A stretch of DNA of 64,000 nucleotides from Talaromyces rugulosus. Taxonomy: Eukaryota > Ascomycota > Eurotiomycetes > Eurotiales > Trichocomaceae. A model generated the notes under the pieces. The model made no database searches. It had not been told where the DNA came from and was given only the letters and a program-made list of their open reading frames with translations. The translations under genes were made by a program, and so were the position numbers. The stretch spans positions 3,472,001-3,536,000 of the forward strand of contig NC_049565.1 of the NCBI RefSeq assembly GCF_013368755.1, written 5' to 3'. Below are positions 2 through 35,067 of this stretch, in pieces (positions within the stretch are counted from its first letter, which is position 1; each line of letters starts with the position of its first letter).

Positions 2-2407
2 CTAGGAGATATTGTTGGGTCAATACGCCGACTTCGTGCAAACTTTCTGCATCTAACACCTACGGTAGCACGAATTCTTGACCCGTCAGCCCTATCTAGT
101 CTAGAGCATGTCCTATTCATTGGCGAGCCACTCAGGCACACGGATACAGTGCGATGGAAAGGCAGACCTCATATATACAATACCTATGGCCCCGCCGAAT
201 GCACAGTGACAAGCACCATTGAGCCCATCAGTCCGAATGAGACCAATGACCCTAGTATTGGCCGAGCTCTCGGCGGTGTGGCTTGGATTGTGCAACCAGA
301 CAATCCCGACCGTCTCACCCCTGTTGGGTTGATCGGTGAGCTCTGGCTTGAGGGTCCTATTGTGGGCGCTGGCTATTTTGGTGACTATGAAAAAACCGCA
401 GCTAGCTTTATCGAAAATCCGTCATGGCTTCTCCAGGGAGCTCCTGGAATACCGGGACGCCGTGGACGGCTGTACAGAACGGGCGACTTGGTCCGCTACA
501 ACGCGAATGGTTCACTGATATTCGTTGGTCGCACGGACACACAGGTTAAGATCCACGGCCAACGAATCGAGTTGGGAGAAATTGAGTATCATGTCCGTCA
601 ATTACTTAGTATTCAATATGTCCAGCATGTTGTTGCTGAAATAATTTCCTCACATTCGACAGGCCGTCAAAAGTTGGCAGTCTTCTTCACAATTTTGGAT
701 GCAAAAGGGAATGAGGACGCGCAGCAGAAAGCCAGACCATTCATAGCGGAACTTGAAAAAGAGTTGCCGCGACGACTACCGTTATATATGATCCCTTCGA
801 CCTATATACCTATCGCCCAGCTTCCCATGACAGCGTCCGGTAAGACAGATCGGAAAGTTCTACGCCATATTGGGGCGTTATATGACTCTCAATATGTTGA
901 GACTCCTTTATCACTCGATTCCCCTCCAACAACAGAAACAGAACTTCGCCTGTCTAATTTATGTGCCAGTATTCTGAATATCGATTATGCAACTATCGAT
1001 TTTAGAAAGAGCTTCCCCGATATTGGTGGAGATTCAATCACGATAATGTCGTTGGCCATAGCGATTCAAACTCAATGGAACCTTAAAATCCCGATAACAA
1101 TATTAGCCGAACCAGGAAATTCGCTTCGCGACTTGTCATTTCTGATTGATAACTTTCAGGAGGGTCATTTAACACATAAGAAATCTGCACTTGACATAGA
1201 TCGTGAGATGAGAGCACTGAGCGACAAGCTGTTCTCGCCTTCGGGTAACGTTCTGTGTGCCGCCCAACGAACGACTGTCTTCGTAACAGGATCTACCGGT
1301 TACTTGGGAACGCAAATCCTCCGGTCACTCCTCGTCAATAGAACCTTTGATAGAGTTGTTTTGCTTGTTCGCCCGATGGATAATCAAGGAGGCCTCGAAA
1401 GAGTCAAAAAGTCAGCAGAATTAGCAGGGTGGTGGGATGATATGTTCGCTTCAACGATCGATGTCTGGCAAGGCGACCTCTCCAAAGAGAAATTTGATTT
1501 AACCGATTCTCAATGGCTATCATTGAGTGGCTCACAGACGGCGGATGGTCCTATTAATGCCATAATTCATAATGGCGCCGTTGTACACTGGACAAGTAGT
1601 TACGATAAATTGAAGAAGGTCAATGTTGAATCGACCTTGCAGTTATTGAGAGTCGCTTTGGCATCGCCTTGCATGAATCGGTTCATATACATATCCGGAG
1701 GTGAAATTTCTGCAAACAGGGATGCGATATTATCGAATAGCGAGACGAACCAGATGACAGGTTATGATCTGACTAAGTATATCTCAGAAAGGCTTGTCGG
1801 TGCGGTGGTATCCAAATATCCCAACTCCCGATGTAAATTCATGACCATCAAACCGGCTCTCATTATTGGTGACGCTAGCGCAGGTATCGCAAACCCGGAC
1901 GATTTTCTGTGGAGGCTCGTTATCACTACGGTGCGCTTAAAAGCACGCCCGATTGAAACCAGGCGGTCATGGCTCGCAATCTCTGATGCAAGGCATATAT
2001 CGGAAATTATCCTGCAGCAAATGACAGCGTCCAATACAGAGTACCGTATTGAGATTAAACGAGGCATATGGCTCGACAACTTCTGGAGTGCTATAGAGGA
2101 TCACCTTAGAGTTGATCTGAGACCTCTCGCTTGGAAGGACTGGGTCGAGTTAGCAAAAGAGGAAATGGCACTAGAGCGGGAGCTTCACCCGTTGTGGCCC
2201 GTACAGCAATTTTTAGGCGACTTAGGAACTGTGCTTCAGGACCACGATGAATCTTTTGCAAGGGATGGGGACATGCTCGAGATCGAACTCGCTGTGAGAC
2301 GCAATCTTGAATACCTCAAAGACATAGGTTTGTTACACATTCAAGATAGCAACCACGGCCAGCTGCGTGGTGGGAGAGACTTGATGAAAACGAGGAGGTG
2401 TGGCTAA
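2..2407 (+). CDS. NRPS-like enzyme, 3' part: adenylation (partial) - carrier - thioester reductase
   Basis: The frame is open from base 2, so the gene continues upstream of the window; no start is visible. Seen in order: adenylation core motifs (NTYGPAE near 180-200, YRTGDLV near 472, VKIHGQRIELGEIE near 547-590, and an A10-like SGKTDRK near 838), a phosphopantetheine carrier site (GGDSI near 1026-1040), then a reductase domain with the Rossmann GSTGYLG near 1288 and a YxxxK pair (YDLTK near 1763-1777). The A-T-R order is that of NRPS-like carboxylic-acid reductases and Lys2-type enzymes: the acid is adenylated, loaded on the carrier and released reductively as an aldehyde or alcohol. There is no thioesterase. 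Whether condensation domains precede it cannot be seen. No intron is needed in this part. The substrate is unknown. Confidence 0.9.
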   Translation, partial: LGDIVGSIRRLRANFLHLTPTVARILDPSALSSLEHVLFIGEPLRHTDTVRWKGRPHIYNTYGPAECTVTSTIEPISPNETNDPSIGRALGGVAWIVQPDNPDRLTPVGLIGELWLEGPIVGAGYFGDYEKTAASFIENPSWLLQGAPGIPGRRGRLYRTGDLVRYNANGSLIFVGRTDTQVKIHGQRIELGEIEYHVRQLLSIQYVQHVVAEIISSHSTGRQKLAVFFTILDAKGNEDAQQKARPFIAELEKELPRRLPLYMIPSTYIPIAQLPMTASGKTDRKVLRHIGALYDSQYVETPLSLDSPPTTETELRLSNLCASILNIDYATIDFRKSFPDIGGDSITIMSLAIAIQTQWNLKIPITILAEPGNSLRDLSFLIDNFQEGHLTHKKSALDIDREMRALSDKLFSPSGNVLCAAQRTTVFVTGSTGYLGTQILRSLLVNRTFDRVVLLVRPMDNQGGLERVKKSAELAGWWDDMFASTIDVWQGDLSKEKFDLTDSQWLSLSGSQTADGPINAIIHNGAVVHWTSSYDKLKKVNVESTLQLLRVALASPCMNRFIYISGGEISANRDAILSNSETNQMTGYDLTKYISERLVGAVVSKYPNSRCKFMTIKPALIIGDASAGIANPDDFLWRLVITTVRLKARPIETRRSWLAISDARHISEIILQQMTASNTEYRIEIKRGIWLDNFWSAIEDHLRVDLRPLAWKDWVELAKEEMALERELHPLWPVQQFLGDLGTVLQDHDESFARDGDMLEIELAVRRNLEYLKDIGLLHIQDSNHGQLRGGRDLMKTRRCG

Positions 2408-7209: not shown

Positions 7210-9053
7210 CTGGAAGGAGTCGCGGGTCTCCATCTCTCTTGGCACAGCTATTTAACGTACATTCTGCATAATCCTGCTTGTAACATATCTTTGAGTCTGT
7301 ATACATATTTAAGGGTTATTCTTTATTATCTCATTATATTTATTGTTATTTAAATTAGTGAGAAGTGATAGTCTTCAAACCACTAAGTCGAAACTTATCT
7401 AAGGCATGCTTTGCTCAGCAAGCCCAGCAGTTCTGCCTGAAGGTCTCTGGTCGACACGAGATCGATGTAGTATATTGCACATCGTCCTATGAGGATGATT
7501 TGAAATACCAATTCTTTATCGAGCGGAAGGATTGAGCGATTATCCTAGTATCAAAGGTTTCTTACAGCAGTTTTCAGAGAATAGATATAAATTTTTACAT
7601 GTTTATAATTGTTCCACTACAGATCCTTCTCAGAGTATAAGACACCGGTTTGGTTTTTAATGTCGAGGAAATTGAGGGGAATTAGGCTTTCATGGAAAAC
7701 ACTGCAGCGTACACTTAATAGCCATGATATATGCATAAGGACATATATATCAGTCGTCTCAATCATGTCTTGATTTGTACATTCTGCCCTATTGTTGAAA
7801 TGTTACTTTCCTGATGTCAACATGGTCAGCCCGCCTGTCAGTTATGAAACCTTTATCAAAGAACCACTCACGACATTCCTCGAGAGATTTGGTCATCTAC
7901 AATGGGCTCCACAGTGTGCGCAAGAGTTCTGCTCCGAACCCTTTGCGGGTCGGCAATTCATGAACTAAGAATTGATCAAAATAACTGAATTGAATGTGTG
8001 TAAAGATAATTACAGGATTTATACATGATTCGCTAATAAAGCCGATTTCCTTTGTTTGCTTGCACGTGACCGTAGGTTGGAATGGCGGCAGGACACACCG
8101 TACTTCCTTCGACGATCTCCGATCATCTTCTTTTGATCCCTGATCGTCTTCTTTTGATCCCTGATCGTCTTTTTTTGATCCCTGATCGTCTTTTTTTGAT
8201 CCCCGATCGTCTTTCGAAGATCTCTTGTGTAATCTGAAACTATCTTATTCATAGATTGGCACGCGGATTCAATAATTCTTTCCTACATAGTGTCAGCCAT
8301 GACAAAGAATATACGTGGTTGGAGCATAAGGTGTGATACATACGGCGTAGGCTGGTAGATTTGGTGCGGCAACTTCATTCATTGTGTTTTTTGTACATGC
8401 GTGATCTTCAGGTGCCGAGTTTGGAGCTTGTGGGGATGGTTTTTCCATGTTGATGGAGGGGTTCAATTTCAATGTGTCGGCCGAAGAAGTTTCAGGAAGT
8501 GAATGTGGTGGGAACAGGATGCGGTTTATATGCTGTCCATTATGCCTCTACGCTAGTCTATCTCCAGTGTAGCGCTAGTAGCTAGTTTCGAAATTGATTA
8601 AAAATAAGTGTAGATAACGAAACCAGCTTTACCTGTACGGAGTAATGCTCCTTCTCTTATATTCGGCCCCACTCTTATGGTTGAAAATATTCACTAGAAC
8701 ATATAGAGTTAGCGTTAAAATTAATATAATATATTAGTTGCTTAGAGAAAGGAGGGAGAAGCCTCAACCGACCTATCTAATATGTGTGCGGTCACATGAT
8801 ACACGGGCCTCACCGCCTTCAACATAATATGTAGGTATTGTTTATTTTGTGTTTTATTTAGAAACTATTGATATAATACTGCATATCTGATAAGAATGTT
8901 ATCTTTAAACAGACAAAAGTTGTTATTTACATTTTTTGAACAAAACATAGCAATACTGAATAAGACAGCACTAACTTTATACATACAACGGTAAAAGCAA
9001 GTACCTTGGCAGTGGGACAGCGAGTATCGTTGGAGAGCCCGCGGATCGTCTTT
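7210..9053. other. intergenic 1.8 kb with a short tandem repeat
   Basis: No supportable gene. It contains the 21-bp tandem repeat listed separately and AT-rich sequence before the 3' end of the recombinase gene. A minus-strand 35-codon reading frame around 7800-7900 looks protein-like by eye but cannot be assigned. Confidence 0.45.
8118..8222. repeat. 21-bp tandem repeat, five units
   Basis: Five head-to-tail 21-bp units (8118-8138, 8139-8159, 8160-8180, 8181-8201, 8202-8222) of the form CCTGATCGTCTTTTTTGATC; units differ at a few positions and the outer two are most divergent. On the minus strand the repeat falls inside a 77-codon ORF (8252-8019) and reads as a seven-residue unit (IRDQKKT), since 21 bp is exactly seven codons. 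No other evidence of a gene here, so minisatellite is the default call. Confidence 0.75.
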
Positions 9054-12000
9054 TCAGGCTAGCCATTGATCAAGAGCTTTTGTATCGTCGAGGAGACGAG
9101 CGACAGTCCATGTCGGCTGTTGGTATCCTCTCCACTTTACCAGGTACTGCTTTGAAAACCCACGGCCTCTCGGTACTATACGTTCATCGAGGATACGGTC
9201 GACCAGATACTCTTCTTGGCCGTCGATGAGTTCAGGTGGTGGCCCCTTGTGGGCAACGTGCTGGGACGAGGAAGACTGCTCGCGCCGTGAAGGCTTCGCC
9301 CTTTCTGAGACTCTCCGACACTTCTGTGTGGTATCGGGGTGTGGAGACCGTTTTCTTTTACGGACCACAGGCCCTTGGGCGTCTCCGCCATGCGTTGGAC
9401 AGCTGAAGCAGCGACTCTGTGCTCGCCCGTCACTGTTGTTCGAAGCGGGGCTGCGGGACCTGCTACGGTGGTGTACCAGGCCCTGACAATCAAGCTCAAT
9501 CACACTGGACGGAGCCCCCCGTAGAGGTCGAAGCCGGCCGTCTGCGTCGCGTCGCGCCCTCATCTTCACGTCCGCTTCTTTTGTCACTTCGAGCGAGGCG
9601 GCGCTCCCAGCCGCTTCATTCAGGAGCCACGGGTCGATCAGAGCCTCCATACCCGGAGAAGATCGGTGGGGGGGAGGCGAGACCCCCGCCTGAGTGTCTA
9701 ATTCAATTAGATCGCCACATCCGGGTGCAGTCAGATCTGAGGAAGTAGGTGCTTTCTGGTAGCAGTCTAGTTTGATATCCACGGGAGGGACGTTTCCCGA
9801 AGAAGGATTCGGCCGTTCATAAACGAAGGTGAACGGTTCCACGTCCCCCTTTGCTGGGTCTGACACACCTTTTGGTGCTGATCTGGAGAGTGGATAACCG
9901 TGCCAGTCAATCATGTGAAAACGCAGGTCGTAATCTGTCGCATAGTCGCCTTGACAGCGCGGATCACAGCATGAGACTGCTTTTCGGCTCGAGAGGCTTG
10001 CCGCCCAATATTCCCGGAGACATCGGTCGACGTGCTCCTTCCACCGGTTTGGGTACTCCCAGGAGCGCAAACGTTCGTCCGCATTCTTCTGGCTGAATAT
10101 ACACGTGATACAGTAACCTGGCCAAGCCACCGTCAGGCGAAAATTGACCGGTTCGCAGCGAATGGGGAGGGTTTCGGGTTGTTCGAGATGGCCCGTGCAG
10201 TGCTCGATCCACGGAGGTCTTCCCAAGATCCATTCATCGCAGATATAACATAGCTGAGCAAATCCATGCTGGCGTATGAGATCCTCCCGGTAGCATTTGT
10301 ACACGTGAGGCCACCTTTGGTCGGGGCGAAGCCTGTCCAAACGAGGCGAATTAGACATTCCCAGTAGTCAATGGCCACCGATCGCATCACGTACCTCTCC
10401 ATATTCTCCCCGCAATCCTCTACAAGGCATTGTCCCTTGTCCGTGGGCCTGCAACTTGGACGGTAAGCAACCTCCGGTGCCCCCTTGCAGAGCCGAATCA
10501 TGTCCTCGATCACCATATCACCGGTCTCGCTGCGAAGAGGAACATCCAGAAAGAGGTTTTCCGCAAGCCGGTCCCGCACCGGATCGAGTCGCCGGGTTCT
10601 CTCAAAGAATATGGTCTGCGGATCCATCACGCCGGTCTTATTTCCCGGCGGCATGCTTTGTGGATCCTCTTGCCACGCCTTAAGCGCCATTTGGATCAAT
10701 TGACGTTTCTCTTCGTAGAGCCGGCCTTGTCGTGCGGTCAAGTTGCAGACCTCCTGGCCAGTCAAGCCCTCCTGCTGTTTCTCATGCTGCAGATCCGCGA
10801 GTTCCTGGGCAATACTCACGAACTCCGGTCCGTGTTCGAGGTCGTACCGTTGCTTGGCCGGCAGCCAATGTAGTAGCTGCGGCTTGTACTTCAGGTTGCT
10901 CGCCCGTATCTCCTGCAGGTGGTCTTCCCTCCGCGGCCGGCCCCAGTAGCTGTCGACGCCACTTACTCGGTTTTTGTGGTTGTATGATTTGTTAAAGATC
11001 TTCGGGTCCCGCTGTCCCGCGAACTGCATCCGTGCGTCAATCGAATAGCCGTTCTCTACGGGCCGGATCAGCACTGCAGGAACGGAATCGTACCGGGGAC
11101 ATCCAGCCTACCGTCAGCCTTGACAAGCGCCTCCCGTCGCATATCGTGGACCTTGATGTTCCCGTCAAATCCGGCATGACGCCCTCGCATGGCCAGCCGC
11201 TTGGCATAGCTGCCTGCTGTCCGAATCTTCCCCTGCGGCCCGTCCCCGTCGACCTCCTGCAGAACCGGACAATCCAATTTCTCCGGATGGATTTCTAGCT
11301 CTATCGGGAACCCCTTCAAGGGCACGGGGATCTCTTTGATCTCGCTCCAGGACTTGTAGCGAACAAAGGACCCATCTGCAAGTGCCTGGGATAAGAAAGG
11401 CAGCACTGGGTTCGCGTACAGTGGCTGCATGTCCTCGTAGAGGTTTCCCTCGGGTCTACGCCGTGAATCCACGGGTCAGTCAGGCGCCTCATGCCTCCTA
11501 TCATCCATGGCGAGGCTTACCTGTCGCTAGGACACAAGGTCGCTCCCTTCGGGTCTCTCGTGGGACAAACGATCAACTCCGCGTTCCCTTTCGCATTTCG
11601 AATCACATGAAAGACGATGTCCTGCCAGGGGAGTCAGCCCGCCGTCCGCAACGACTACAGCCTGGGATTGCACTGACCCGATACAGCAGGCCACGCCCGC
11701 TGCCGCGCCGGGCAGAGGATTCATGGTGCTCACCAACGCGGCCGGAGGTGTAGCACGCGAGAAGGTCGCCCGCATGGTCATTGACCAGGGTTCTGGTATG
11801 GCGGCTGAGCGACCATTCCCTGCGCCACGTATGCTCTTGTAGGACGATGAATCGTTCCAGTGTGAACCAGTAGATCGGTCTGGTTGCCAGGGAGAGAGGG
11901 ATCTCCCTCCGGAGCACGTCCCTGATATACTGGTCCCGCGTCAGCACATCGTGAATTCGGGTGGGACTGGGGTGGGGACGGTCTGCCGTACGTGGTATAC

Positions 12001-12444
12001 CGACTCTGTCAAGTCGCCGGCCAGCTTCTCGTTGCCCTTCTGCCGCGGCCACATCGCGATGAACTGCTGCCATCGGAGCTGGATGTAGGCCAACGTCGGG
12101 GCCCGCACCCGCTCTCCCGCGGGATTCACAATCATCGGCGATTCTTTGAGATTGCCTCGACTGGTCTCAGCGACCTGTTTCATGAACCGTTTTGCCGTGG
12201 CCAGGTCATGGATGCTCGCGCCCGGATTTCGATTTTGATACCTGCCGACATGGTCAGACACGCGACGAAGTCGAAGGGAAGGGTACCAGGGCGGAGGTTC
12301 TCACTCGGCCCATAACTCCAGCATGTCCTTGTAAGGCTTGTCGCAAGCGAGGGAACGAAAGATGCGGTTCCCATTGATCTCAAACCGGCCGTCGTCATCT
12401 CCGGCACCGTCTAAGACCTCAGCTGCCGTCCTCCGGCGCGGCAT
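9054..12444 (-). CDS. DUF3435-type (Starship captain-like) tyrosine recombinase with C-terminal chromodomain, seven exons
   Basis: Exons inferred on minus: 12444-12305, 12241-11992, 11929-11678, 11621-11521, 11455-11112, 11055-10395, 10332-9054. Each of the six introns is 56-65 bp with GT...AG, most with a CTGAC-like branch site, and removing them gives one open frame of 1008 residues. Tyrosine-recombinase landmarks: box I TSGRVGE (Arg194), HDMRRE (His351, Arg354), and GQRDPKIFNKSY (Tyr387, with Gln where many have His). The region around YIRDVLRREIPLSL and the Cys/His-rich part after residue 583 match the DUF3435/FluG-like family as I know it. A basic linker then leads to residues ~956-1008, a chromodomain (EEYLVDRILDER ... 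KQYLVKW ... PTW). The family cuts and pastes large fungal elements, and the captain sits at the element's 5' end. The chromodomain resembles that of gypsy element A here. GC-rich, unlike its flanks. No stop or frameshift seen. Confidence 0.85.
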
Positions 12445-12931
12445 CGTGGCACGTTTCTTTTTTTTTGGTTTTGTTTTCTTTTTTGTAAGGTATCGAAGAC
12501 AACAGATAGACCCTAAGAGTGCCCCCGATGATGCCCAGATCCCGCATCCAGGGAGGACATCATCGCCCTATATACACACGCCTCTCGGTTCCTAACAAGA
12601 TTGGCCCATGTCCGCCGTGCGTGTCAGACCGCCTGACAGCCCCAATGCGGTGATATCTCCGGCCTGCCCTGCCAGGTGGTCCCCGTTCTTACCCCCCTCC
12701 CCCCTGGAAGTCCAGGGCTGCCGGGGAAGGGAGCCCGCCCATCCAGCGATATCGGCGGGGCGGTGCAGGCTTGTATGGCTTGCAGAGCTGCGTTGGGTCC
12801 CCTGGGGCAGCCCTGGAGCAGCACGCCCCAGCCGACGCCAGCCGGCGGCAGCGGGGCGGCAGCCGGGGGTGGTGGCCGCCGCCGACGGCCGCGTCGGATG
12901 GGGGAGGGCGGCGCGTTCAGATCCGGGGCGG
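12445..12931. other. GC-rich 5' flank of the recombinase gene
   Basis: Strongly GC-rich, especially 12660-12925, with no RIP signature. It then changes within a few bases to very AT-rich sequence at about 12932. Contains a TATA element and a TGTCAG...CTGACA inverted repeat (12622-12638). ORFs here are low-complexity by-products of GC richness. It may be the terminal segment of a captain-bearing element. Confidence 0.5.
12569..12574 (-). promoter_or_regulatory. TATA-like element upstream of the recombinase gene
   Basis: TATATA on the minus strand, about 125 bp upstream of the inferred ATG at 12444, followed by pyrimidine/purine-rich leader sequence. Position fits a core promoter; unproven. 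Confidence 0.35.
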
Positions 12932-15900
12932 ACTATATAGTTATTTCTGTTTTCATTCTTATATTTAGTAAGTCTACTCTATAGAAGTTTTAAACAGCTT
13001 GCTTATGTAAGTAGCGTTTACTATTTATTAATTAGCTAAATATTTATAATTCTTATAATAATCCTTTTCTTTGAAGACTAGTGTCCTGACAGTTATATAA
13101 ATAGTTATAGGTTCCCTATTATATAGATAGGCTAATTTCTTTCTTATTAACATTTTTGGTGATGATATTCTAACTATATTATTAAAGCAAAATATAAATA
13201 TAAAAAATCTTTAGCTATGTATTAAATAGTCTAGTATTATTCTACTGATTCTTTGTTATTGTTATATAGTCTAAAGAAAGATTTATATTAAATCTGAAAT
13301 TTCAAGTTATTATAGTAAGTGTATTGGTTTTGATCATTATAAGTATTATAATATAGCCTTGTCTAATCTAATATAGAAAAAGCTTATTAAAACTTAAAAG
13401 AAGATTAAAGCTAATAATAATTAGTTAAATACTAAGCTTAAGGCTCTCTTTACTAAATAGGCTTATTTATATAAATAAAGAAAACTTCTTTAAAAGTATA
13501 CTAAAGAATTTATTTAAATAGATATAAAGGATATAGAGAAGTTAAAGCGTTTAGAAAAAAAAGAAAAGAAAGAATAGAAATAAAAAGTTAAGCTGTAAAA
13601 ATTAAATAAGATAATTATAGCTACTATCTAAAAATTTCCTGTATTATCTAATAATAAATTTGACTATATCCTTTTTAAGTTTTTTTTTAGTGAAATACTT
13701 AAATCTTTTTAGAGCAGTTTAAATGTCTAACTAGTTTCTATAAATTATATTTAGATCTATATTCTTTCTAGTTAACTAAGTAAAAGATTTTTTTTTTTAT
13801 TAATTTTTTCTTTAGAATATTTTTAATTTTATATTTATTCTTAGTTGCTTTGTTGTTACTATTTTCTAAATTTTTAGTTAATTTTAATAATAAAATATGA
13901 AATACTAGATGTACTTTTATTCTTACTAATAATTAAAGTTTATAATTATTATTAATAAGTTTTTTTTAAATTATAAAAAGTCTGTATTTAATAATATTAA
14001 ATTTATTATTTAATCTCTTACTTAGAATATTAAATTTTTTTTATTTAATTATTTATTGTAATAAATAAACTTTTTTTCTTTTTTTAAAGATTAACGCGTC
14101 TTTATACTTTTTATTATAATAGATCTTTATTTAGTTTTTAACCTATTTAATGTTTTTTGATATTATTTAATAGAGTGTCTGTAGTTTATTGGCTTATATT
14201 ATTATAGCTTTAGATAATTTTTCTTATAGTACTTTAGACCATGTTATTCTTAGATATCATCTAAGATTTATAAAATATAGAACTTATTTTATTATAGCGT
14301 TTTCTATATTATTTAATATAAACTATACTAATAGTAATAGTTCTATCTAATTATCTTATTCCTAGTCTAAATAGTGTTAAAAATACTATTTAACTATTTA
14401 AATTATTCTTTTAGACTAGCTATCAGTCTATTAGTAATTTATAGTTAATAACTTGTGATATATTCTACATACTTTTATAATTATCTGCTAATATTTAGAT
14501 ATAAATAACTTATCTTAGTCTATAATAAATTTATTTAGTAATCTAGTCTTTATAAAAACTTTTTATAATATAAATTTTATATATTATTCTACTATTATAT
14601 TCTTTAATATTGGTTCTAAGATAATATATTTCGTAAGTTGGTTAACTGTTATTATAGCATTAATATAAATAACTCCTATTACTAGGTCCTTAGACTATAA
14701 TAATCCTTAAATAAAGTCAATAATAATATTTTTCTATACTTCTTCTAATACTTCTAGTATTTATATTTTTTTAAAGAGTTTATAGTGTACTACTTTATTT
14801 CTATTATATTTATTACAGTTTCTAATATAATTCTCAACCCTTTTTTGGATATAAAGAAAGTAGAATATTTGGATAATTATTTTAATTATTCTTTCAACTC
14901 TTTGATGTCTTTTTATTAAAGGATTATAGTAGTACTGAATAACTTCTATAGTTATATTCTATAGTACTCTAATTATTCTATTCTATATCACTAAGCCTTT
15001 CTGAATATTTTTTATAACTTATCTAGCTTGTAATTCTTCTTATATTTTTTAATCTTTATTAGTTTCCTAATGTATTTACTTATAGAATAAATTATTATTA
15101 ATAACTCTTATTACAGTCACAATAATTATATTATAATTATAATATAGAACTCCTAATTCTTCTTGCAGAATGTTTATCTTAAAGAATTCTATTCTAATTA
15201 TGTAATCTGGTTGTCTGCTTAATATGTCTGTAGCTGTATTTTATTTTTCTAGAATATATTTAATTCTGTAATTAAATTTAGCTAATTCTTTAGTCTATTA
15301 TATTTATCTTCTAGATAATTCTTTTATTATTATAAAGTATTTTAAATTATAATAATTACTTTTAATAATTACTTTATATTTTACTTCTTAAAGATAGTAT
15401 CGCTATTATTAAAATACTTAAACTATTACGAGTAATTTTTAGTTATAAATATTATAGTTAACTTCTACTAATATAAACTTTCTTAAGTAGAATACAATAA
15501 TCTATATTTCTCTCTTTTTATTGATTTGTTTATAGATTACTCTAAAAATATATCTAAATACGTCTATTCATAGAATACTTTATAATTCTAGGTTAAATAA
15601 TTATAATATTAGCACAATTTTAATAAGTTCTTTAATATTTTCAAAAGACTATTGTCTTCTTATTATCCAATTAAATAGTTTATTTTTTTTTAGTAATTCT
15701 GTTATTAGTATTATAATGTCTAAGTATTTCTCAAAATATCATTAAACATATTTACTAGCTCCAAGAAAAGATTGTATATTATAGATATTTATTAAAATTA
15801 GCTATTCAAAAATAATATCTAATTTTTCTTTTAGTATTTCTAGTCTATTTGTTTTATATACTATTCTTAGATAATTAACTTGTATAGTATTAAATTCATA

Positions 15901-18900
15901 TTTCTTGATTTTAAAAGTCAATCCTGCTTCTATAAGTTTTATTATAACCAGTTATATATAGTTATTGTGTTCTTTAGGGTCCTTTAAATAGACTATAATA
16001 TTATTAAAGTATACTGCAACAAAGGGATTAAAATATTCTTATAGAATATAGATTATAAACCTTGTGAATTCTACTAGTAGCTATTTAAATCCTATAGGCG
16101 CTACTAGCCATTTATATAGTCCTAAATCCATAAAGAATGCTATTTTCCAAATGTCGTCATTTTTCATTTGTAGGTTATAGTATCCCTATTCAATATCAAA
16201 TATTATTATGATTTTTATGCCTTATAATAAATCTCTTTTCTATTCCTAGTATAGTGCTTTATTTGTGTCGTCTTTGGTTATATTATTTAATTTTCAGTAA
16301 TCAATGACCATTTATAGTGATTTATTACGTTTTGATATAAATATTGCTTATACAGAAGTCTTTGCTTTTGATTCTCTAATATAACTAGCTGCTAAGAATT
16401 TCTTAATGAATTTCTTAATAGTTTGGAGTTCATCTTATGAGATTTGTCATTGCTTCATTTATAGTACCTATACTCTTTCTTTAAGCAGTATCTTTGCTTT
16501 GTATTCTTTTTTATATTATAATAGTTAGTATTCTTTTTTTATAAATAATTTGGTAAAGTTTTGATATTTCTCTAATAGCTTGTTAAACACTTTTTTTAAT
16601 TCCTTTTCATAGATTTCTTTTAGTTTCCTTTATGTTTCAATTTGTTAGTCTATTTTATTTATTTCTTTAGTATATTTCATCTTTAACTACTAGTCCAGTT
16701 TAATCCTTATTTGCTCTGTTTGTAGTATTTTTAAATCTATTAATACTATCTTATATTTCTAGTTAATAACAGGATTATATTTCTATAGCTATATTATTCT
16801 AAATATAATATTAAAATCCTTTCATTTAAACAGACTTAAATCTAGTTAGATACTTTTTTCATATTCTCCTGATTTAATTATAATATTTTTAGTTTATCAT
16901 ATAAATCCTTTGATTATAATTTGTTCTTTAAAATTTTGTATAGTATATCATAGATTTATCTTATATATTTAGATCCTGTTTTTCTTAATATATACTTTGC
17001 TAATATAATTCATCAATACTCCTGAATTAAAGAATAATTTAGCTTCATATCTATTAATTATTCCTTTGATAATAATTATAGTTTCTCTTATCTTGATAGT
17101 TATGGCAATAAGATAATATCTCTTCCTGTGCTTCTTAAGGTATCATTTCTGTAATAAAACAATTTCAGTCTAATCTTTATCAGTATAGATGACTCGTCCT
17201 TTATAGTATAGATATTTTTTCGCGTAGTATTAATCAGTTTTAATACTATTATAGAAAAGATGCCAAATTTCTTCTATATAGCATCAACATTTATTCCAGT
17301 CCTTTAGACAGTCTAAAATAGATTAATAGATAATCATCAATACTATTAGCTTCTATTTATTCTTTTCCTTTTCTTCAAGGTGAATTAGATATCTTGACTC
17401 ATAGTATTGCATCCAATATATCTTCTTATAATAGTGTCTTCTATATTATAGATAATATATATATGAACATTTTTTAGTATATCTAAACATCAGATAGCAT
17501 AACCATGTTCCTTTAATAAGTAAAATATATTTAAATTCATTTATAAATACAATGTTTTTTTTCCTATATATATTGTATTTATAAAATATCCACTTATAAC
17601 ATTTTTTGTATTCAAGGATATATTATTAGTATATCTGAATAGAGTCTTTCTAATATACTGGTTTAGGTGGTTTATAACTACATTCTTGTTTTAGTTCTTC
17701 ATAGTCAATTTCAGAGAATTTCTCTGTTATTTCGGAGTCTTCACTGTTTATTTCCAGAATCTTAATTCTTGTTCTTAGAACTGTTGTGCTGGTTCTTAGG
17801 ACTAAATTCTATTCTTTCTTTGTGATTGGTAGTTGTTTTTAGAATAGTCTAATTATTTTATTTACTTGGTTAATCACCCTTACAGTATCTTCTCTAAGAT
17901 TGGTTATTTTTGCTAACTACAATTATTACAAAATATCTAATTCTTGATCTAAGTCCTTATAGTCAACTTCCTTATCTTTTCCACTATCTTGAAATATTAA
18001 AGAATATTAACTTTCACTTTTTAATAAAAGGTTATTAATATACCATCTAACAGTTTTACTATATTAGTCTTCTCTGTAAGGTTCTCTGATCAGTCCTTTC
18101 TCTTAATCTTGTTATAGATGAGATTACACTTCTTTTAGATTAGCATCTTCTTTCTAAGATGGTTCTCTTTCTAAACTCTATCTAAGACATCCCTTAGATT
18201 ACCTAGAGCTATCTTTTTGCTTAAAATTCTTAAGTAATTTATATATTTTTTTTTCTAATATTAGTTCCTAAAAGTCCTTAACTTTATTAATCTATTCATT
18301 TTCTAACTCCTCCTCCTCACTATCTAAAGAGATCATAATTATCTAATATATAGCCACAACTTATTAATAGACTATTATTATTTTCTAAAGACTAATATTA
18401 CTATTCTATTTATTTTATCCTGATTAACACTATTATATAAAGTATTCTTTTTATCTACATTTATAATAAGCTTTATTTTCTTTATACTTAGCCATTTTTT
18501 CTTTACTGATCATATTATTAAGCTATATCTTAATATCACCATTCTTATCATATTGGGTTCCTCACTTTACTGATGTGTTAGTATATTAAAGGAATCTTCT
18601 AACTTTCTTCTATCTCTAAAACTCTTATTACTTCTGTTTGATCTTGAATAGTTTATTGTCAATCTTGACCATCATCTTAATAAATCTGTCAATATTGTTA
18701 GGTTGATCAAGTTTAATAAATTCTATCTAGACTTCTTTCTTAAGTATATTCTCAAAGGTTACAATTTAAATAGTATTATTATAGTATAGTGATATTACTA
18801 TTTATTAGAATTTAGTTGCCAACTACTGAGTGGATCTAGTCTATTATAGATATCTTAGTTATCTTTCTATAGTCTATAGCTTATTGATATTTCTAAACAT

Positions 18901-19391
18901 TTCTCTAAGTTTTTATTTGAATATGCTATAGTTTAAAAACAGTTCTCTGATAATAGTTCCCTAATTACTTCTATTAATAGTATACAATTTACTTAGCATA
19001 GATTATATTCATTCTGCTGCTATATTAGTAAAACATGATGCTATAAAGATTATTTTCTTTTTATTATAAGTAATCTAGTTGGTTTCAATATATATTTCTA
19101 TATTGACTAAAAATATCTTCAACTTGGATTTAGTTCCATCAAAGGTTATAGGTTTTGATAGTTTAATTTTGTTACTGGCTGTTCTAGCTTTACCAGGTAG
19201 TATAGCTATAACTTGAGCTTTAAGTTAATTAACATAATTATCTTTTTCAACAACTGTAGCTTGCAGTCTTTAAATATGTTTATTTATTTGATTAATGACT
19301 CTTTCTAATATAGTGAATCTTTACTGGGTTTGCTTATCAGGTTCATTGTTACTGTCTTAATCAACTAGTCTTACTTGTCTTACAGATAAAC
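12932..19391 (-). mobile_element. RIP-degraded E-family gypsy element, first part (left end missing)
   Basis: Aligns by eye and collinearly with the clean element E: 12932 onward corresponds to about 56072 and 19390 to about 62525. Differences are almost all C-to-T and G-to-A, converting CpG, CpA and TpG to TpA. For example ATGTTCTGACC in E is ATATTCTAACT here. All ORFs are destroyed. Only the last ~115 bp of the left LTR remain (12932-13046); about 545 bp are missing where the GC-rich flank starts. The gag-pol direction was minus. The element resumes at 32094 after an inserted C-family copy. Confidence 0.85.
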
Positions 19392-19602
19392 TGTGAGGAT
19401 ATTATATAGAGAGCAGGCAAGAGTTGGATTCGATAGTAAAGCTATGGTTTGCTAGGTAGTCAAACTGATTGCTGACCTTCGGCAATCCCTGTGTGAAGGT
19501 TAGAATATATATACCGCTTCATTAGTGGCTTAGTAACCTTCTGTAAGGCTAGTGTAGCAAGGTATGGCATCTAGTGTATCCTGAAGGTCTTATAACTTTA
19601 TA
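19392..19602 (-). repeat. 3' LTR of degraded C-family element
   Basis: 211 bp, same length as the LTRs of clean C. The outer ~100 bp are nearly unmutated, whereas the inner half is clearly RIP-mutated (final TATA in place of CACA). Confidence 0.85.
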
Positions 19603-22600
19603 TTATCTCCTCTTTTCTTAGAAGCTGCACTGATGTTCTTCATATAGGTTCTTATAGAAGATATAAATAAGCTTAGACACTGTTATTATAGGGACTAGTA
19701 TATATAGTATATAGATCTACCTACACATATTATTGATATATTGTTTATAGATTAGACTGTTATTTATTTTTTTTTCCTTACTATTAAATAGTTTATTATA
19801 TTGTTGCTAATTCTGTGCTTATTCTCTCTACTCTTTTGTTTATTTATGCTGTCTGAATGTAAATGATATATCCTTTACTAGTTATCTCATATCAATTACA
19901 ATACCTGTTCAAACGTTTGCTCAGTTTGTTATTTATTAATAGTTTGTAGAATAGTTCTAAAAAAGAAGATCTCCCATTATTTTTTAGCTACTTTACTGAT
20001 TATCTCGTCCTCTAACAAGGATATCTCTATGTTGGGCTATACCTAGTTAACACGTACTGCTGGTGGTGTGGCCACTAGTATACTATAATCTGTAGTGTAG
20101 AAGAAATCATTAAAGAAGTTATCTTTAAAAAAGGGTAAGTCTGCTGCTGCTCCTCTCTCTATAAAGAAGTATATGCGCTCCCCTTTCTCTGCTAATACTG
20201 ATAGAGACGATGTCGAGGACAAAGATAATGATGATAATAAAGATAATAAAGCCAATACTGCGCTGTCTAGTATACCGACCTCCTCGCCTTATTATAAGCC
20301 TCGTGTGTATTTCCTAGAGACATATTTCCTATCTTACCAGTAGTGTCTATGGTTATTAGGCCATGACCCTAATTTGGAATACCCTGGCCTTAGTAACAAA
20401 CCCTGCCCCCAATATAAAAGGTTGAAAAAGTCTATAGCTAAGTACTACCTGGTAAGTTCTTCTTTCATTTATATATTTCTATAGATATTAATATTTATTA
20501 GATTCCTGTAGAGCAGCTTGACCAGGCTGTTACAACTATAGAACTAGTAATGACCTGTGCTGCTAATTAGAAGGATACCGTCAAGATATTAGATATAGTA
20601 ATATATTATTGATCTAATCCTTATTCAGCTAAGTCCTTAATTGATATAGGTAGTTCTGCTTCTGTTATGGTGATATAAGATAATTCATCTGTTATTATGA
20701 CAGTAGATCCTCTAGCTGCTGCTTAGTAGTCTATAAGCTAATATTTTATCTCTTTTAGTGGTCTTATATTGGGTATTACTGTCCTGTATAGGCCAACTAT
20801 GTTATCCTATATGCAGCGCGGATTACCTATCTCTAGTTATAGGGAATCTTTTAGTAGTTATAGTGCTAGGTTTAATCCTAAACTTATGTGTTTACTGGCT
20901 GGGGTGCACGAAGCAACTTGTGTTTTTGATAACTATTTCTACTATCAGGGGTATATCTGAAAAATTCTTTCTTATATAGTAATACTGCAGCCTTCAGGCC
21001 TGAATTGAAATGTATTTACTTGCCCTTTAGAGCTTTTTATGAATATCCTGGTGTTCTAATATAATACCCTGTAGGGTTTATATTTAGATACCCCTAGGTG
21101 GTTCAGGTTTATTTTGTTTTTTGTTTTTTTTATGTAGCATGCGCGGCCTTAAATATTTTTTTTTTTTGAATAATTTGTAGACTTTTAATAGAAAGTCTTT
21201 TTTGTTTCTCTTTTCTTTAGTTCACTAGTATAGTTTTAATATAGTTTGCTTTTTGGTTTTCTTTTATAGATAGACGTCAAGAGCTTTAGTTTCTTTAATA
21301 ATTTCTTCTAGTTCCTAGATAGCTTCTTTAATCAGCTATCCTTTCTATTGGACTATATATTCTATTCCCCTGTCTCTCTTCTGGTCCTAAACTATTCCTT
21401 GAATAGTATACTTAGGTTTGCTATCTACTAGTACCGGTTCTGGGGAAGTATAGTTCCCAGTGTTGATGTAGTGCAGCTTCAGTAGAAAAACATAGAAAAC
21501 TGGATAGATTCCTCTATATCTTGGAATAAGGTCAAGTTTATATATATTTAATCCCTATGTATCTACTATTCAGAATAGGCCTAGATATCTATCAGCTAAT
21601 TTTTCATTATATTGGAGTGAAGCTATATTCTTTGTTTAAAGCATGACTTATTCTCTGATTTTGAATTCCCAATAGATCTTTTCCTAGTTATAATACTTCG
21701 CTTATGCTTCCTTAGCTTCTTCCAAGCATTTCTAAATATTTGTCTATTTGGTACAGAGCTCTTTTATCTAGTTTATAGCATATAGCTCTCAATCCTTCAG
21801 ACTTAAGAGAGTATCTTTAGGAACATCTATTCTCAGGTCTCCCTAGAATCCTATAAGGATTTCTATTGAAGATTACCCTATAATATTATACTGACTATTA
21901 TTATATATATTCTACGCTAGTAGAATCCACTATAACTAGTCCATCTACTCATAGTTCGTGTAGTATTAAAGAAAGTGTTTTACTATCTAATTCTAGCACT
22001 CTGTCTGTCTATCTGTTTATGGATAGGCTATTGTCAACAGTTTCTAGGTTATCTCTAGATAGAAGTATATAGTTTGCTAGAATTTACTGGTGAACAGCTT
22101 ATCCTGATCTGAGACGATATACTGTAGGAAGATAATCTACTGCACTAGATTCTCTAGAAGTAGCTTCGCTAGTCTTTCAGCTAATAATACTTTCTATGTC
22201 AACAAGTAGATAATGTATTTTAAGAATAGGTTGATAATGACTAATATAGTGTCAACCATTGCTCCCTACTATTCTATAGATGGTAATCCTGTTATAAAAT
22301 CTATAGTTATTGTTTCAAATAGTTCTAATAGAACTGGTAATAGCTTAAGTAGCTTATACTACTGGTGTCTGTGTATCTTAACCCATTAGCAGGTAGAATA
22401 GGTTTGGATATAGTAGTCTATATCGGCTTCTAATGCTGGCTAATAGTATTTCTGATAGATAGCTACTATAGTGCAGGCTTTTCTAAAATGGCCTTTTTAT
22501 GTATTATTATAGTTATTCTTTATAATTTCCAACTATAAGGTTTTATTAGGTGGCACATATGTGGCTTTTTTATACTAGAGAAGATCACACTTCCTAATAC

Positions 22601-23986
22601 TTTATACCAAATCCTCGGCCTGTCCCGCATGGAGTTCTTTCAACTTCTTCTATATAAAGGCATTCTCTTGTTGGTATGTTCGAAGGAGACTCTCTATGTT
22701 GGGTTTTATTTCTAAATAGGCTGTCTCAGTCCTTATAGCTTTGGTCATTAGGGACCGTGGCATTAGAAGTTCTAGATCCCTTATATCACCAGCAGTGATG
22801 TTCTTATCCATAGAGATATTCCTTTTTTCGGGCCTATGGGCATTTTCTTTATTGACAGTAAAAGATATTCTTTAAGCCTTTTATACTTGTGCCAGTATAT
22901 TCGTAGATAATTCTTAGTTATATGGGGAGATTAGATTTTGTTTTTATTTCTTAAAGTAACCTCTTCGCAGCTTTTCTTATAGGGTTGGGAGCGTCGTTAT
23001 ATCTTCTTCAATATTGTCTATATAGTCCAGACAACAACTTAGCGTATCTATGGGGTTCTTTGAATCTAGGCGGTATTCTATATTAAAATTAAATATTAAT
23101 AGATATTTTACCTATCAGGCTTAACATCTGCTGAGTTTTTTAGTAATAATAAAGTATTATAGGTTATTATAATCTATTAGGACTCTAATTATATATTAAC
23201 TATCTTCTAGATATTACTACCAGTGCTTGAAAGCTTTTACTACTACTAGAAATTCTAAATTATATACTTTATAGTGTACCTTTAGTCTCTTAAGCTTCTA
23301 GGACCAGAAGGCTATTAGATATTATTAGAAATCTTTAAATAGCTGAGTAATTACCACTCCTAGGGCTCTGCTTGAAGTATTTATTTCTATGCAAATTAGA
23401 AGCGCTAGGTTATAATATCTTAGTATAGATTTATATTAAAACGCTTACTTTAAGCTTAAAAAAGATTCTCTAGCTTTTAAGATTATATTAAATCTTTAGA
23501 TAGTGCTGCCTTTTTGGCTATTATACTTTGTTCTCTCTATAGGACTCTTAGTTATCTTAGATAGTGACGCTAATATACATGAGAACTAATATATAAAATT
23601 ACAATAGAAATTTATAAATCCTAAAAATAACTAGACCTCTTTAACTGTCCGCGGTTCAGGCTATTCTATGATAGTACAAATCTAGTCTAGGTCTATTATT
23701 ATTCCTTGTAGGCTTATAATAAATCTAAAATATTCTATGATATTTATTCTAAAGCTATACTTGCTTCGCTTATAGTATAAACTATAGCTTCTTAATTAGC
23801 TTATAACTTTCTATACCTGGGCTTTATGTACCTGTAGATTAGCTAAATATATAACTATATTATCTAGATATACTACTATATAGATGTCTAATAGATTTAA
23901 TATTACCTTATTGATATATATCTAGAATGTGGCCGATATATTTACAAAGCTAAATAGCATTATCTGGTATTTAAAGTAGTTATAAT
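19392..23986 (-). mobile_element. RIP-degraded C-family gypsy element, first part
   Basis: Collinear with the clean element C (39219 onward), inserted into the degraded E-family copy with a 5-bp duplication TAAAC (19387-19391 and 32089-32093). Contains the left (3') LTR, the remains of the antisense zinc-cluster gene (about 19950-20965, with its GTAAGT...TAG intron still recognisable near 20453-20505) and the 3' part of pol. Interrupted at 23986 by clean element A. Mutations are RIP-type and ORFs are broken. Confidence 0.85.
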
Positions 23987-24243
23987 TGTTACGGGCTAGG
24001 TCCCGTCTTACTGGCCTTATGTAGGTCCAGGAATTGAGTAGATTCGAACGTGAGAAAGAGAAGGAAAAGGTTCGCAGGGGTTCGCATTGTCGAATGTCGA
24101 TACAGGCGAGTGTGGGTCCCGGGGGCGCCCTAGCGAATCTGGTGTAGCGTCAGGGGGTTCTTCTATGGCGAACCAGGTGCGGACCAGGTGCGGTTATTCT
24201 ACGAGAGCGAAGCCTGAGTATCCCAGGGGCTAAGACCCTAACA
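23987..24243 (-). repeat. 3' LTR of element A
   Basis: 257 bp. Identical to the other LTR except for one G fewer in a homopolymer near 24152. Contains an 11-bp tandem duplication (ACCAGGTGCGG) near 24176-24192. Confidence 0.95.
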
Positions 24244-27200
24244 TTACTCCCCCCCTTCGGCAAGGGCGTTGTGGTGTTGGAGCCAGTGGTCGAGTGCTTC
24301 GGTGTCTTCCATGGACCGGGCAGGTTCCCATGTAGGTCGCGCATATCCGGTCCAACGGACAAGGTATTGCTTCATATGTCCGCGGCCCCGACGTATGGTC
24401 CGTTCGTCGAGTATGCTATCGACTAGGTACTCTTCATTGCCTTCTACTAGGTGCGCTGGTGGCTGGTAATCGTGTCGGGTCTGTGAAGGGAGCGGACGTG
24501 TGCCCGCAGGGCGGAGGAGCGTCGTATGAAAAACATCATGAATAGTTCCGGGGACATCGAGTCGGTACGCATGGGATCCCACTTTCTCTAGTATAGTATA
24601 TTTCGCATGTCGGGCGTCCAGCTTCTTCGAAGGTCGTTCGGTCCGAATGTTCCGAAGGTCTAACCATACCTTCTGTCCTACTTTATACTCCAGAGGAGTC
24701 TCTCGGCGACGGTTCGCACTATCTTCCATTCGCTGCTGCGCTGAGACAAGCTCAGTCTGCGCTATATCAAAGGCCTGCCGTAGCTTAGTAACTATATCGT
24801 TTGCACGTTCGGCGGCGGGTCTTTGCTGCTCAGATGTGGGGATAGCTTCATCTAACTGGAGTGGTTCGACGTTGTATCCATGGGTCAGGAAGAAGGGGCT
24901 GATACCAGTTGCAGTAGCGTCGCGCCCGTTTATTGCGAGTTGCGCAATTGCGGTTAGTGGGCTCCAGTCGGTTTGGAGGTAGGTACAGAAGTTCCGCAGG
25001 TATTCTTCCACCACAGAGTTAGCACGTTCCGTCTGTCCATCAGTTTGGGGGTGATGCGCGGTTGACAATCGTCTCATGATCTTTAGACGTTCGCACACGC
25101 CTTTCCAAAGGTCATTAACAAATTGCGTGCCCCGATCCGATATAATGCTGCTAGGCGGCCCATGTTCGCGTATGAATCGGTCAACGAACTTCGATATCAC
25201 TGTCTCAGTATCTATGTGTTTGCATGGTACCAATATAATCCCTTTTCCCAGTCGGTCAACGATTACCATGAGATTCGTATTCCCGTCGGACATTGGGAGT
25301 TTCTCTATAAAATCCATACTAATATCTCGCCACATTCGCGAGGGAACAGGGAGCGGTTTTAATAACCCTTGTCGGCGTTGTCTCCATACGGTGTTCGCAC
25401 CACATTTGTCGCAGTTATTCACGAACCTTCGGACATCCTCAGATAGGTTCGGCCAATATAGTTGTCGGGCCACGATGGCATAGGTCATGTTTCGGCCTGG
25501 GTGTCCGGTGAGATAGGAGTCGTGCGTATCTTGTATAATACGAGTGCGGAGTGGTTCGCTGTTTGGTACCCATTGTCGGTTTCGAAATAGTAACCGGTCC
25601 GCTGCATCGATCGTGCATTCGGATACCATGGTGCGAAGTTGTAGGTCTTGAGGGAACCGCGGGAGCTTCTGGCGTACGGCCTCTTTGATTCGTTCATAAT
25701 TCTTATCCTCGGCTTCGGCTAGTCGCCACTGTTCTCCAATTGACGTTAAGTGCTCTATGTGGGTAGCGTGGACATGGGGTTCAGGTGCGGTGTTCGATAA
25801 GCGACCCTGGGGAGGTTGTTCTGGATAGTCTCTCCGTACCTTGTTAGGGTTGATAAGACGCTTATTTCGGTATGCTAGGCGTTCATCGTCAATCCCATCG
25901 GGCATATCTTGCGAGCGTCGCGATAGTGCATCAGGTCTGGCAGCTAGTCGCCCTGGCCGGTATTGGAGCTTATAGTTGAAGCGTGAGAGTATACCGGCCC
26001 ATCTCATTTGCCTTTCATTCAACCGTCGGAGCTGCATGAAGTATTTAAGATTCCGGTGGTCGGTCAGGATAGTAAACTCCTTAGTGCCAATTAGTTCAGG
26101 TTCCCATTGCTTCAGACACGCTATTATCGCCAATAGCTCCTTATCGTGGATCTCGTAATTGCACTCCGCGGGCGTGCACTTTCGGGAGAAGTAGGCGCAG
26201 GTTCGTAGGAGTCCTTTGTTATCGTACTGTGATAATGTCCCCCCTACGACATATCCCGAAGAGTCGGCTTCCACGATTGTATCCTGCTCGGGGTCGAATT
26301 GCACTAGTATTGGGTCGCTCACAAACATTTGCTTTAGTTGTTCGAAGGCTTCATTGGCGGCCTTGGTCCAAACGAAGGTAGTTCCCTTTTTAGTCAGTTC
26401 TGTCAGCGGACGGATTATGTCGGAATACCCTCGGATAAACTGTCGGTAGAAATTTGCGAACCCTAGGAACGATCGCACGTCTTTCACACACGTTGGGGCT
26501 TTCCATTCCAAAATGGCAGAGACTTTCGCGGGGTCCATTCGGATCCCTTTTCCAGCTTCTAATATGAATCCGAGGTATTTTGTTGTCTGCACCTCGAACT
26601 CGCATTTATTGATATCTAGCTGTAGTCCCGCAGTGCGCAGGCGTTCTAGCACCCTCATTACCTGTTTCCGATGGTGCGCGCGGCTGCCTTCCGTAAAGAT
26701 AAGCACGTCGTCCAGATAGGCAGATACAAAGTCGTCCAGGAACTCGCGAAGGGTCCAATTGATGTATCGTTGAAACGTGCTCGGCGCATTGGTAAGGCCG
26801 AAAGGTGTTACTAACCATTCATAGAGTCCAAACCTGGTTCGGAAAGCTGTCTTCCACTCGTCTCCTTCGGCGATGCGTATCTTATGGAAGGCCGCTGTAA
26901 CGTCAAGCTTTGTAAACCATCGGGCTTTAGATATTCGTTGTAGGGTCTCATGTATTAACGGTAGTGGATATCGGTCCCTTTTTGTCATAGCGTTGAGCGC
27001 CCGATAATCGACGCAGAAGCGCAGTCCTCCTCCGGGTTTCCTTACAAACAGTACCGGCGCTGCAGCGGGCGAGTTGCTCACACGTATGAAGTCCTTCGAC
27101 AGTAAGTCGTGGAGAGTTTTCCGTAGGACCAGCAGTTCTTCCCGTGACATGTTATAGAGAGGGCCCCATGGTATCTCTGGCTTGCGCCCCTTCGCGTCGG

Positions 27201-27858: not shown

Positions 27859-27926
27859 CTTCTTAAAATTCTCGAAGTCACGAGCTGTTTTGCATTTTGG
27901 CTCCTGCGGGCGACTTTGCGCAGGAG

Positions 27927-29021: not shown

Positions 29022-29214
29022 AATGGGGAAATTTCTCAATGCTCAACTCGGTCGTCGAGGAGCGGCGATATAATAATTCAATCCTCCGAATGAGGAGAGT
29101 TGGTACGGTTCTCAGGGGCTCGACTCGAACGAACGAGGAGCGATCGTATAGCTCAACCCTTCGGGTGAGGGGAGTGGCGCGTTCTCGACCCTTTAAATAG
29201 GGGAGGGGGGCGAG

Positions 29215-29227
29215 ACGTTCGAATCTA
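29215..29227 (-). promoter_or_regulatory. self-priming primer-binding site of element A
   Basis: One base after the 5' LTR, the sense strand reads TAGATTCGAACGT. This is perfectly complementary over 13 nt to ACGTTCGAATCTA inside the element's own LTR (29281-29293), next to a CT-rich stretch typical of fungal start sites. This is the Tf1 arrangement, in which the mRNA 5' end primes its own cDNA. It does not start with TGG as tRNA 3'-end sites do. Confidence 0.6.
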
Positions 29228-29228
29228 A

Positions 29229-29486
29229 TGTTACGGGCTAGGTCCCGTCTTACTGGCCTTATGTAGGTCCAGGAATTGAGTAGATTCGAACGTGAGAAAG
29301 AGAAGGAAAAGGTTCGCAGGGGTTCGCATTGTCGAATGTCGATACAGGCGAGTGTGGGTCCCGGGGGCGCCCTAGCGAATCTGGTGTAGCGTCAGGGGGG
29401 TTCTTCTATGGCGAACCAGGTGCGGACCAGGTGCGGTTATTCTACGAGAGCGAAGCCTGAGTATCCCAGGGGCTAAGACCCTAACA
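29229..29486 (-). repeat. 5' LTR of element A
   Basis: 258 bp with TGTTA/TAACA ends. Differs from the 3' LTR by one extra G in the homopolymer near 29393. Confidence 0.95.
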
Positions 29487-29491
29487 ATAAT

Positions 29492-32088: not shown

Positions 32089-32093
32089 TAAAC

Positions 32094-33439: not shown

Positions 33440-33697
33440 TGTTAGGGTCTTAGCCCCTGGGATACTCAGGCTTCGCTCTCGTAGAATAACCGCACCTGGT
33501 CCGCACCTGGTTCGCCATAGAAGAACCCCCCTGACGCTACACCAGATTCGCTAGGGCGCCCCCGGGACCCACACTCGCCTGTATCGACATTCGACAATGC
33601 GAACCCCTGCGAACCTTTTCCTTCTCTTTCTCACGTTCGAATCTACTCAATTCCTGGACCTACATAAGGCCAGTAAGACGGGACCTAGCCCGTAACA
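33440..33697 (+). repeat. 5' LTR of element B
   Basis: 258 bp, with six C in the homopolymer near 33526-33531, the same length state as the 5' LTR of A. Confidence 0.95.
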
Positions 33698-33698
33698 T

Positions 33699-34999: not shown

Positions 35000-35067
35000 C
35001 TCCTGCGCAAAGTCGCCCGCAGGAGCCAAAATGCAAAACAGCTCGTGACTTCGAGAATTTTAAGAAG

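Follow-up and report, generated by a model that had tools for sequence, protein, structure and literature searches.

We analysed a 64,000-nucleotide stretch of contig 5 of Talaromyces rugulosus (positions 3472001–3536000; genome of 35.8 Mb in six contigs), hereafter the window, around a minus-strand gene at 9054–12444 that encodes a DUF3435-type recombinase ending in a chromodomain and is the candidate captain, or recombinase, of a Starship-type giant transposon. In-silico splicing of its seven exons, separated by six GT-AG introns of 56–65 nt, gave a single 1008-residue frame, as the initial annotation of this DNA had read it. The spliced product is identical, letter for letter, to the deposited T. 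rugulosus protein TRUGW13939_09743 (P0001), for which the stored domains are PF00385 and PF11917. Exon 1 (12305–12444) holds the start codon, and exon 2 (11992–12241) ends at 11992 in the deposited model, with an alternative intron 2 donor (exon end 12001) giving 1005 amino acids. By splicing, residue positions and alignment, exon 3 (11678–11929) holds Arg194, exon 4 (11521–11621) the RDxKG motif with Lys239, exon 5 (11112–11455) His351 and Arg354, and exon 6 (10395–11055) Tyr387. Exon 7 (9054–10332) lies in an uninterrupted open reading frame (ORF) of 437 codons and spans most of a Cys/His-rich region, a linker, the chromodomain and the stop codon. The Cys/His-rich middle of the protein, also part of the initial description, has 21 Cys or His within residues 562–760; most of this C2H2-like region (residues ~584–727, computed from the exon table as 9900–10332) also occurs in relatives. 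The linker occupies residues 821–945 (9246–9620) and the chromodomain region residues 946–1008 (9057–9245), all on the minus strand. We regard it as almost certain, at the level of sequence, that the fusion of DUF3435 and chromodomain is real.

The Pfam DUF3435 profile (PF11917) matched residues 211–491 of P0001 (E=5.9e-10, 39.1 bits vs a curated cut-off of 25.8), and this hidden Markov model search confirmed the recombinase assignment of the initial annotation. Arg194, His351, Arg354 and Tyr387, all named in that annotation, are invariant in nine of nine aligned DUF3435 proteins, P0001 included, as is Lys239; we take these five residues to be the tyrosine recombinase active site, with the motif R...K...HxxR...Y. 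The eight relatives besides P0001 came from two protein searches and belong to Glutinoglossum, Geoglossum, Exophiala, Roridomyces and Termitomyces, with P0008 and P0009 being Basidiomycota members of the same recombinase family. None of the eight has a Pfam chromodomain match at E up to 1, and the architecture that the initial annotation had suggested looking for in other fungi was not seen among them, each search having scored only ~8000 candidates, such that chromodomain-bearing relatives could have been missed. Phage_integrase matches below the cut-off were present in four of the eight (E from 0.0046 to 0.25). The Roridomyces relative, P0008, is annotated as a fusion of DUF6534 and DUF3435, possibly through an annotation merge. 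The window gene was not among the loci listed by a six-frame, exon-by-exon PF11917 scan of the genome, probably because the family is divergent and its exons score apart.

A tree of 19 recombinases, an analysis that the initial annotation had envisaged, could be built, with five of the six included canonical DUF3435 genes of the genome on a separate branch (97/89). The sixth sits on a branch of great length, a situation in which, by the program's own warning, placements are unsure; the branch of P0001 is itself long (1.01). The tree does not decide captain status, since captains and solo DUF3435 genes are interspersed according to published work (PMC12134995).

The chromodomain had been placed at residues ~956–1008, and the Pfam Chromo profile (PF00385) matched residues 958–1006 (E=2.7e-7, 30.8 bits vs a cut-off of 25.1), a trivial difference. 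An alignment of four proteins shows an IDPxL motif at the C-terminal ends of P0002 and P0003; P0001 has this motif at residues 815–820 (IDPWLL) and then continues for 188 further residues. The aromatic cage is kept: Y958, W983 and Y986 occupy the positions of Y, W and Y/F in aligned HP1-type chains. Among retrotransposon chromodomains, those of group I are similar to the classical type, with the cage Y24/W45/Y48, and that of MAGGY binds H3K9me2/3 and is reported to act in integration targeting (PMC3350952). The captain chromodomain fits the group I (chromoviral) type and is a predicted reader of H3K9me2/3.

Comparison with retrotransposons of the genome points to a gypsy integrase as the origin of this tail. 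The chromodomain and the C-terminal end of gypsy A are identical at 39 of 62 residues, and a genome search gave 61% identity over residues 940–1007, making the initial estimate of about two-thirds a fair one. With the captain as query, the genome search scored gypsy A at 77.7 bits and gypsy B at 26.5, gypsy C and a CHD-like locus being unlisted; a search with the tail found two gypsy-type polyproteins, P0010 and P0011, both at 61 bits. The best solved chain was Swi6 at 21 bits, and Swi6/HP1 chains scored at most 21, placing the captain chromodomain closer to gypsy integrase tails than to host chromodomains. The captain, gypsy A, P0010 and P0011 have in common a first loop of greater length and a shorter loop ahead of the TW motif; in both lengths they differ from the four other aligned chromodomains. 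The Glu of the WEP motif is present in gypsy A and missing from the captain and P0011. The captain and gypsy A also rank first against a chromodomain profile, but this carries no meaning because the profile was derived from these two sequences. At codon positions one, two and three, 45, 50 and 20 of 62 are identical to gypsy A, respectively (dN 0.31, dS not computable). Since so few third positions match, the capture is old or was made from another element; the tail would come from the gypsy A lineage and hardly from the copy of gypsy A in the window. Third-position GC falls from 0.66 in residues 1–868 to 0.48 in the chromodomain, so the chromodomain and the remainder of the gene have had different histories.

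Upstream, the gene is preceded by a GC-rich flank (12445–12932, minus strand, 65% GC) with no second copy found in the genome, and the probable 5' end of the element is at 12932/12933. There the flank meets gypsy C (12933–32865), a retrotransposon altered by repeat-induced point mutation (RIP), with a TpA/ApT ratio of 1.21 in its block vs 0.56 in the gene. The 3' long terminal repeat (LTR) of gypsy C is cut at 12933, with its inner 124 bp left, and the 5' LTR is complete at 32206–32865. Because the gypsy C LTR runs ~530 bp past the cut point in six aligned genome copies and in the intact copy of the window, the segment of the gene joins the interior of an LTR at a point 488 bp ahead of the start codon, and position 12933 as a natural LTR end was ruled out. 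We likewise rejected 32206–32738 as the missing LTR half, since it belongs to the 5' LTR of the same gypsy C. A RIP-tolerant pattern for the missing half had 68 matches genome-wide vs 21 for a reversed control, with a single match left of the gene on contig 5, at C5:524333, with two mismatches and on the opposite strand. Gypsy C is interrupted by gypsy B, also RIP-mutated, and gypsy B by gypsy A1, the 1234-amino-acid ORF of which (24244–27948, minus strand) ends in the chromodomain type closest to the captain's among those found. The two gypsy A copies of the window, A1 (23987–29489) and A2 (33437–38939, beyond the nest), are inverted and 99.98% identical.

Two related recombinase genes, at loci L026 (contig 5) and L027 (contig 6), have no chromodomain seen in their frames and suggest how such junctions may arise. 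They have a common 5' end, AAACTTGTCACAG, starting at 2953 in L026 and at 2868 in L027, and are 96% identical over the first 3.9 kb, with similarity continuing past the gene into a shared unit that includes F-box-like and ankyrin frames. Both abut RIP-mutated gypsy C, one on each strand and each at its own site; at these junctions the reference gypsy C reads AAACTT (L026) and AAACTC (L027); such words occur in gypsy C at a frequency of ~0.0005–0.001 per position. This looks like insertion at a short motif common to the element end and the target. From the 5' end of L026 to the in-frame ATG read at ~3443, an unconfirmed start, the distance is ~490 bp, vs 488 bp in the window. Across the five family loci examined (the window and L025–L028), three abut gypsy C, and no gypsy A, B or C was found within the fetched stretch for L025 or L028. 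A Crypton-like compact element, suggested by the GC-rich gene-only island of ~3.9 kb, was ruled out by the more than 6 kb, with downstream genes, that L026 and L027 share. At L026:6834–6900, a long run of C separates the halves of the shared unit; it is short in L027, and is either a polymorphic repeat or an assembly error.

Among the matches listed, gypsy C LTRs form one main cluster per contig, with scattered copies, some of them near contig ends. These clusters are centromere-like and lie at 3.05–3.24 Mb on contig 1, 3.0–3.14 on contig 2, 3.55–3.78 on contig 3, 3.23–3.49 on contig 4, 3.48–3.66 on contig 5 and 3.34–3.70 on contig 6. The gene lies on the left margin of the contig 5 cluster, which may be a pericentromere. 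This location agrees with targeting and is no argument for it, because DUF3435 genes without an adjacent chromodomain match are also inside gypsy C clusters (C6:3572k and C4:3253k).

On the other side of the gene, the ~450 bp after the stop codon (8600–9053) are AT-rich, with a RIP-like index (TpA/ApT) of 1.18. We considered an LTR remnant here and found no support for one: gypsy A and B LTRs scored like shuffles, and the gypsy C LTR was weak, with 10 of 300 shuffles attaining its plain score and 83 of 300 its RIP-tolerant score. Within the stretch, 8934–9020 is 71% like L048:6165–6251. To the left of the 5' junction, a stretch of 73 kb that contains the gene shows a single match to gypsy A, B or C, namely 63 bp of the chromodomain itself; retrotransposon debris, the case that the initial annotation had set against its own reading, thus found no support. 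Further along, two pieces of 7445–8592 are 79–81% identical to C5:636859–638100, which lies ~55 kb downstream of the L026 captain in the same orientation relative to its captain.

Downstream in the orientation of the captain come ankyrin and exchanger-like frames, a flavin monooxygenase and a non-ribosomal peptide synthetase (NRPS) with a terminal reductase, followed by a transporter, a DUF3723 gene, a ferric reductase, an ankyrin gene, another transporter and two sets of NOD-like receptor (NLR)-type genes. Published work counts NLRs, ferric reductases and DUF3723 among the gene families of Starships (PMC12506042). To place the DUF3723 genes of the genome, 27 rows were merged into ten loci (weak C5:437k included) and compared with 18 DUF3435 or family loci (weak C6:170k and C5:587k included). 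Six of the ten are found no more than 40 kb downstream of a DUF3435 gene, and none is found on the upstream side; the count is five at 20 kb and six at 60 kb. Not one of 20000 uniform placements put at least four loci within 40 kb, a limit picked after seeing the data and a null that ignores repeat clustering. The DUF3723 gene of the window captain is the farthest of the six, at 35 kb, and C4:2445k, a member of the sister family, has one at 16 kb. Starship elements of up to ~700 kb are known (PMC12134995). We consider it likely that the gene is the captain of a Starship-like element.

The end of the NRPS open frame (2–2404, plus strand), recognized in a domain scan by AMP-binding, PP-binding and terminal reductase domains, is candidate cargo. 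The whole frame, L029:2616–9998 and window 2–2404, has condensation domains and the terminal reductase, and with a flavin monooxygenase and a transporter nearby it may represent biosynthetic cargo. The NLR-like sets run in opposite directions, one in L062:5666–9434 with L061:1008–2183 (minus strand) and the other in L061:3757–7628 (plus strand); both comprise phosphorylase-superfamily, NACHT and WD40 frames and lie roughly 51–63 kb downstream of the captain stop codon.

P0001 resembles Starship captains in its DUF3435 match above the cut-off, its R-K-HxxR-Y residues, its probable 5' position and repeat junction, and the NLR, ferric reductase and DUF3723 genes downstream. Unlike them, it has a chromodomain in the same protein, and its family is apart from five of the six canonical captains and also occurs in Basidiomycota. 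The nearest parallels are the Starships Sanctuary and Frontier (PMC12506042, PMC11857905), in which a captain and a chromodomain protein are found in one element; in those elements the chromodomain has a gene of its own, located at the other end from the captain, whereas in P0001 it is fused to the recombinase. The authors of the Sanctuary study speculated on heterochromatin targeting (PMC12506042). Among the matches listed in open-licence literature on Starships or DUF3435 and chromodomains, these two were the only such pairings and none was a captain–chromodomain fusion, in agreement with the initial remark that no captain with this tail was known. Chromoviral gypsy integrases such as those of MAGGY and gypsy A, the closest found, share the C-terminal group I chromodomain, but theirs is attached to the DDE integrase of an LTR retrotransposon and not to a tyrosine recombinase. 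Cryptons are also tyrosine recombinase DNA transposons, first found in fungi, but are very distant kin of captains, which unlike Cryptons can carry sizeable cargo (PMC12134995); for P0001, Pfam gives DUF3435.

We propose that the gene encodes the captain of a Starship-type giant transposon and that a chromoviral gypsy integrase was the source of the group I chromodomain that extends its C-terminus. The recombinase would cut and join DNA at short target motifs, and the tail would bind H3K9-methylated nucleosomes, holding the complex on silent, RIP-mutated repeats and thereby biasing insertion away from genes. As an overall account of the locus, a captain with a gypsy-derived tail that biases insertion to silent repeats is the best explanation, and we consider it about as probable as not. 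Sequence features consistent with it are the continuous frame, the intact R-K-HxxR-Y residues and cage, a tail extending past the end of the closest relatives, and the accessory families downstream. Heterochromatin-biased integration through the tail would be the best mechanism and is plausible, its chances being about evenly balanced. It is possible, though we lean slightly against it, that a captain took up the targeting module of a gypsy integrase in cis, giving histone-mark-guided integration of a cargo-carrying DNA transposon.

Several observations weigh against this proposal. L026 and L027 abut gypsy C without a chromodomain, and therefore insertion into silent repeats does not need one. 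The captured module inferred in the initial annotation stands insofar as a DUF3435 recombinase and a gypsy-integrase-type chromodomain share one ORF with Starship accessory genes downstream; the silent-repeat location is not explained by the chromodomain, given these two loci. The window gene occurs only once in the genome, so that targeting cannot be read from a further insertion, and the AAACTT end of L026 and L027 was not found upstream of it with up to four mismatches. Neither the missing LTR half nor the 3' end of the element was found in 73 kb, leaving the element undelimited, and for this reason we do not file it as a proven Starship. The P0001 family is apart from most canonical DUF3435 genes of the genome in the recombinase tree. 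The chromodomain phylogeny foreseen in the initial annotation, built from eight short sequences, was poorly supported. In a nine-protein alignment, the IDPxL ends of P0002/P0003 and P0001 are out of register, and the remaining relatives differ from one another in length and at their ends, making the exact point of tail addition uncertain. The AlphaFold model of P0001 (mean predicted local distance difference test score 40.4) was uninformative on the fold.

Some of these points favor other explanations, which we weighed against the same evidence. The protein could be a solo DUF3435 recombinase that borders a centromere-like block of repeats and not the captain of an element, with the NLR, DUF3723 and ferric reductase genes as ordinary neighbors. 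The absence of a 3' end in the 73 kb, the greater frequency of solo DUF3435 genes (PMC12134995) and the 35 kb to the window DUF3723 gene all agree with this. We nevertheless think it rather doubtful, considering the DUF3723 loci downstream of DUF3435 genes in six of ten cases, including the one at 16 kb in the sister family, and a flank that breaks within an LTR at nearly the same distance from the start codon as in L026, where the ATG is unconfirmed. The tail could instead be in use for a role other than the choice of insertion sites, such as self-association or, in excision, keeping the recombinase on its own silenced element. Because the resident segment joins RIP-mutated repeats, a methyl-histone reader could recognize its own chromatin there, and the sister captains, already inserting into gypsy C without a chromodomain, show that the tail is not needed for entry. 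The nearest functional precedent, the MAGGY chromodomain, is reported in integration targeting (PMC3350952), and we consider another role unlikely.

Alternatively, the frame may have run into an old gypsy 3' end, the tail being tolerated without function. Its single occurrence, the long branch of P0001 and the drop in third-position GC would be expected of such a passive fusion, which we judge quite improbable in view of the intact frame and three cage residues and of the poor conservation of third codon positions relative to first and second ones, part of this constraint having accrued on the gypsy branch. That the chromodomain is an annotation artefact, being a separate gene or retrotransposon debris, is very improbable: the gene model was read from sequence alone and an AT-rich, RIP-like stretch follows its stop codon, but a frame of 437 codons stays open from the Cys/His region through to the stop codon, the 73 kb left of the 5' junction contain no further match to gypsy A, B or C, and the LTR scores after the stop are those of shuffles for gypsy A and B and weak for gypsy C.

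How Starships pick among the many copies of a short target motif is an open question, and the help of a chromodomain in their targeting has been called speculative in print (PMC12506042). The natural fusion puts reader and recombinase in one protein, and tail deletion and cage mutants therefore become a direct test. If the proposed captain with a gypsy-derived targeting tail is correct, a module would have passed from a DDE integrase to an unrelated recombinase, and a reader that in Sanctuary and Frontier seems to be provided by a gene of its own would be built into the recombinase itself.

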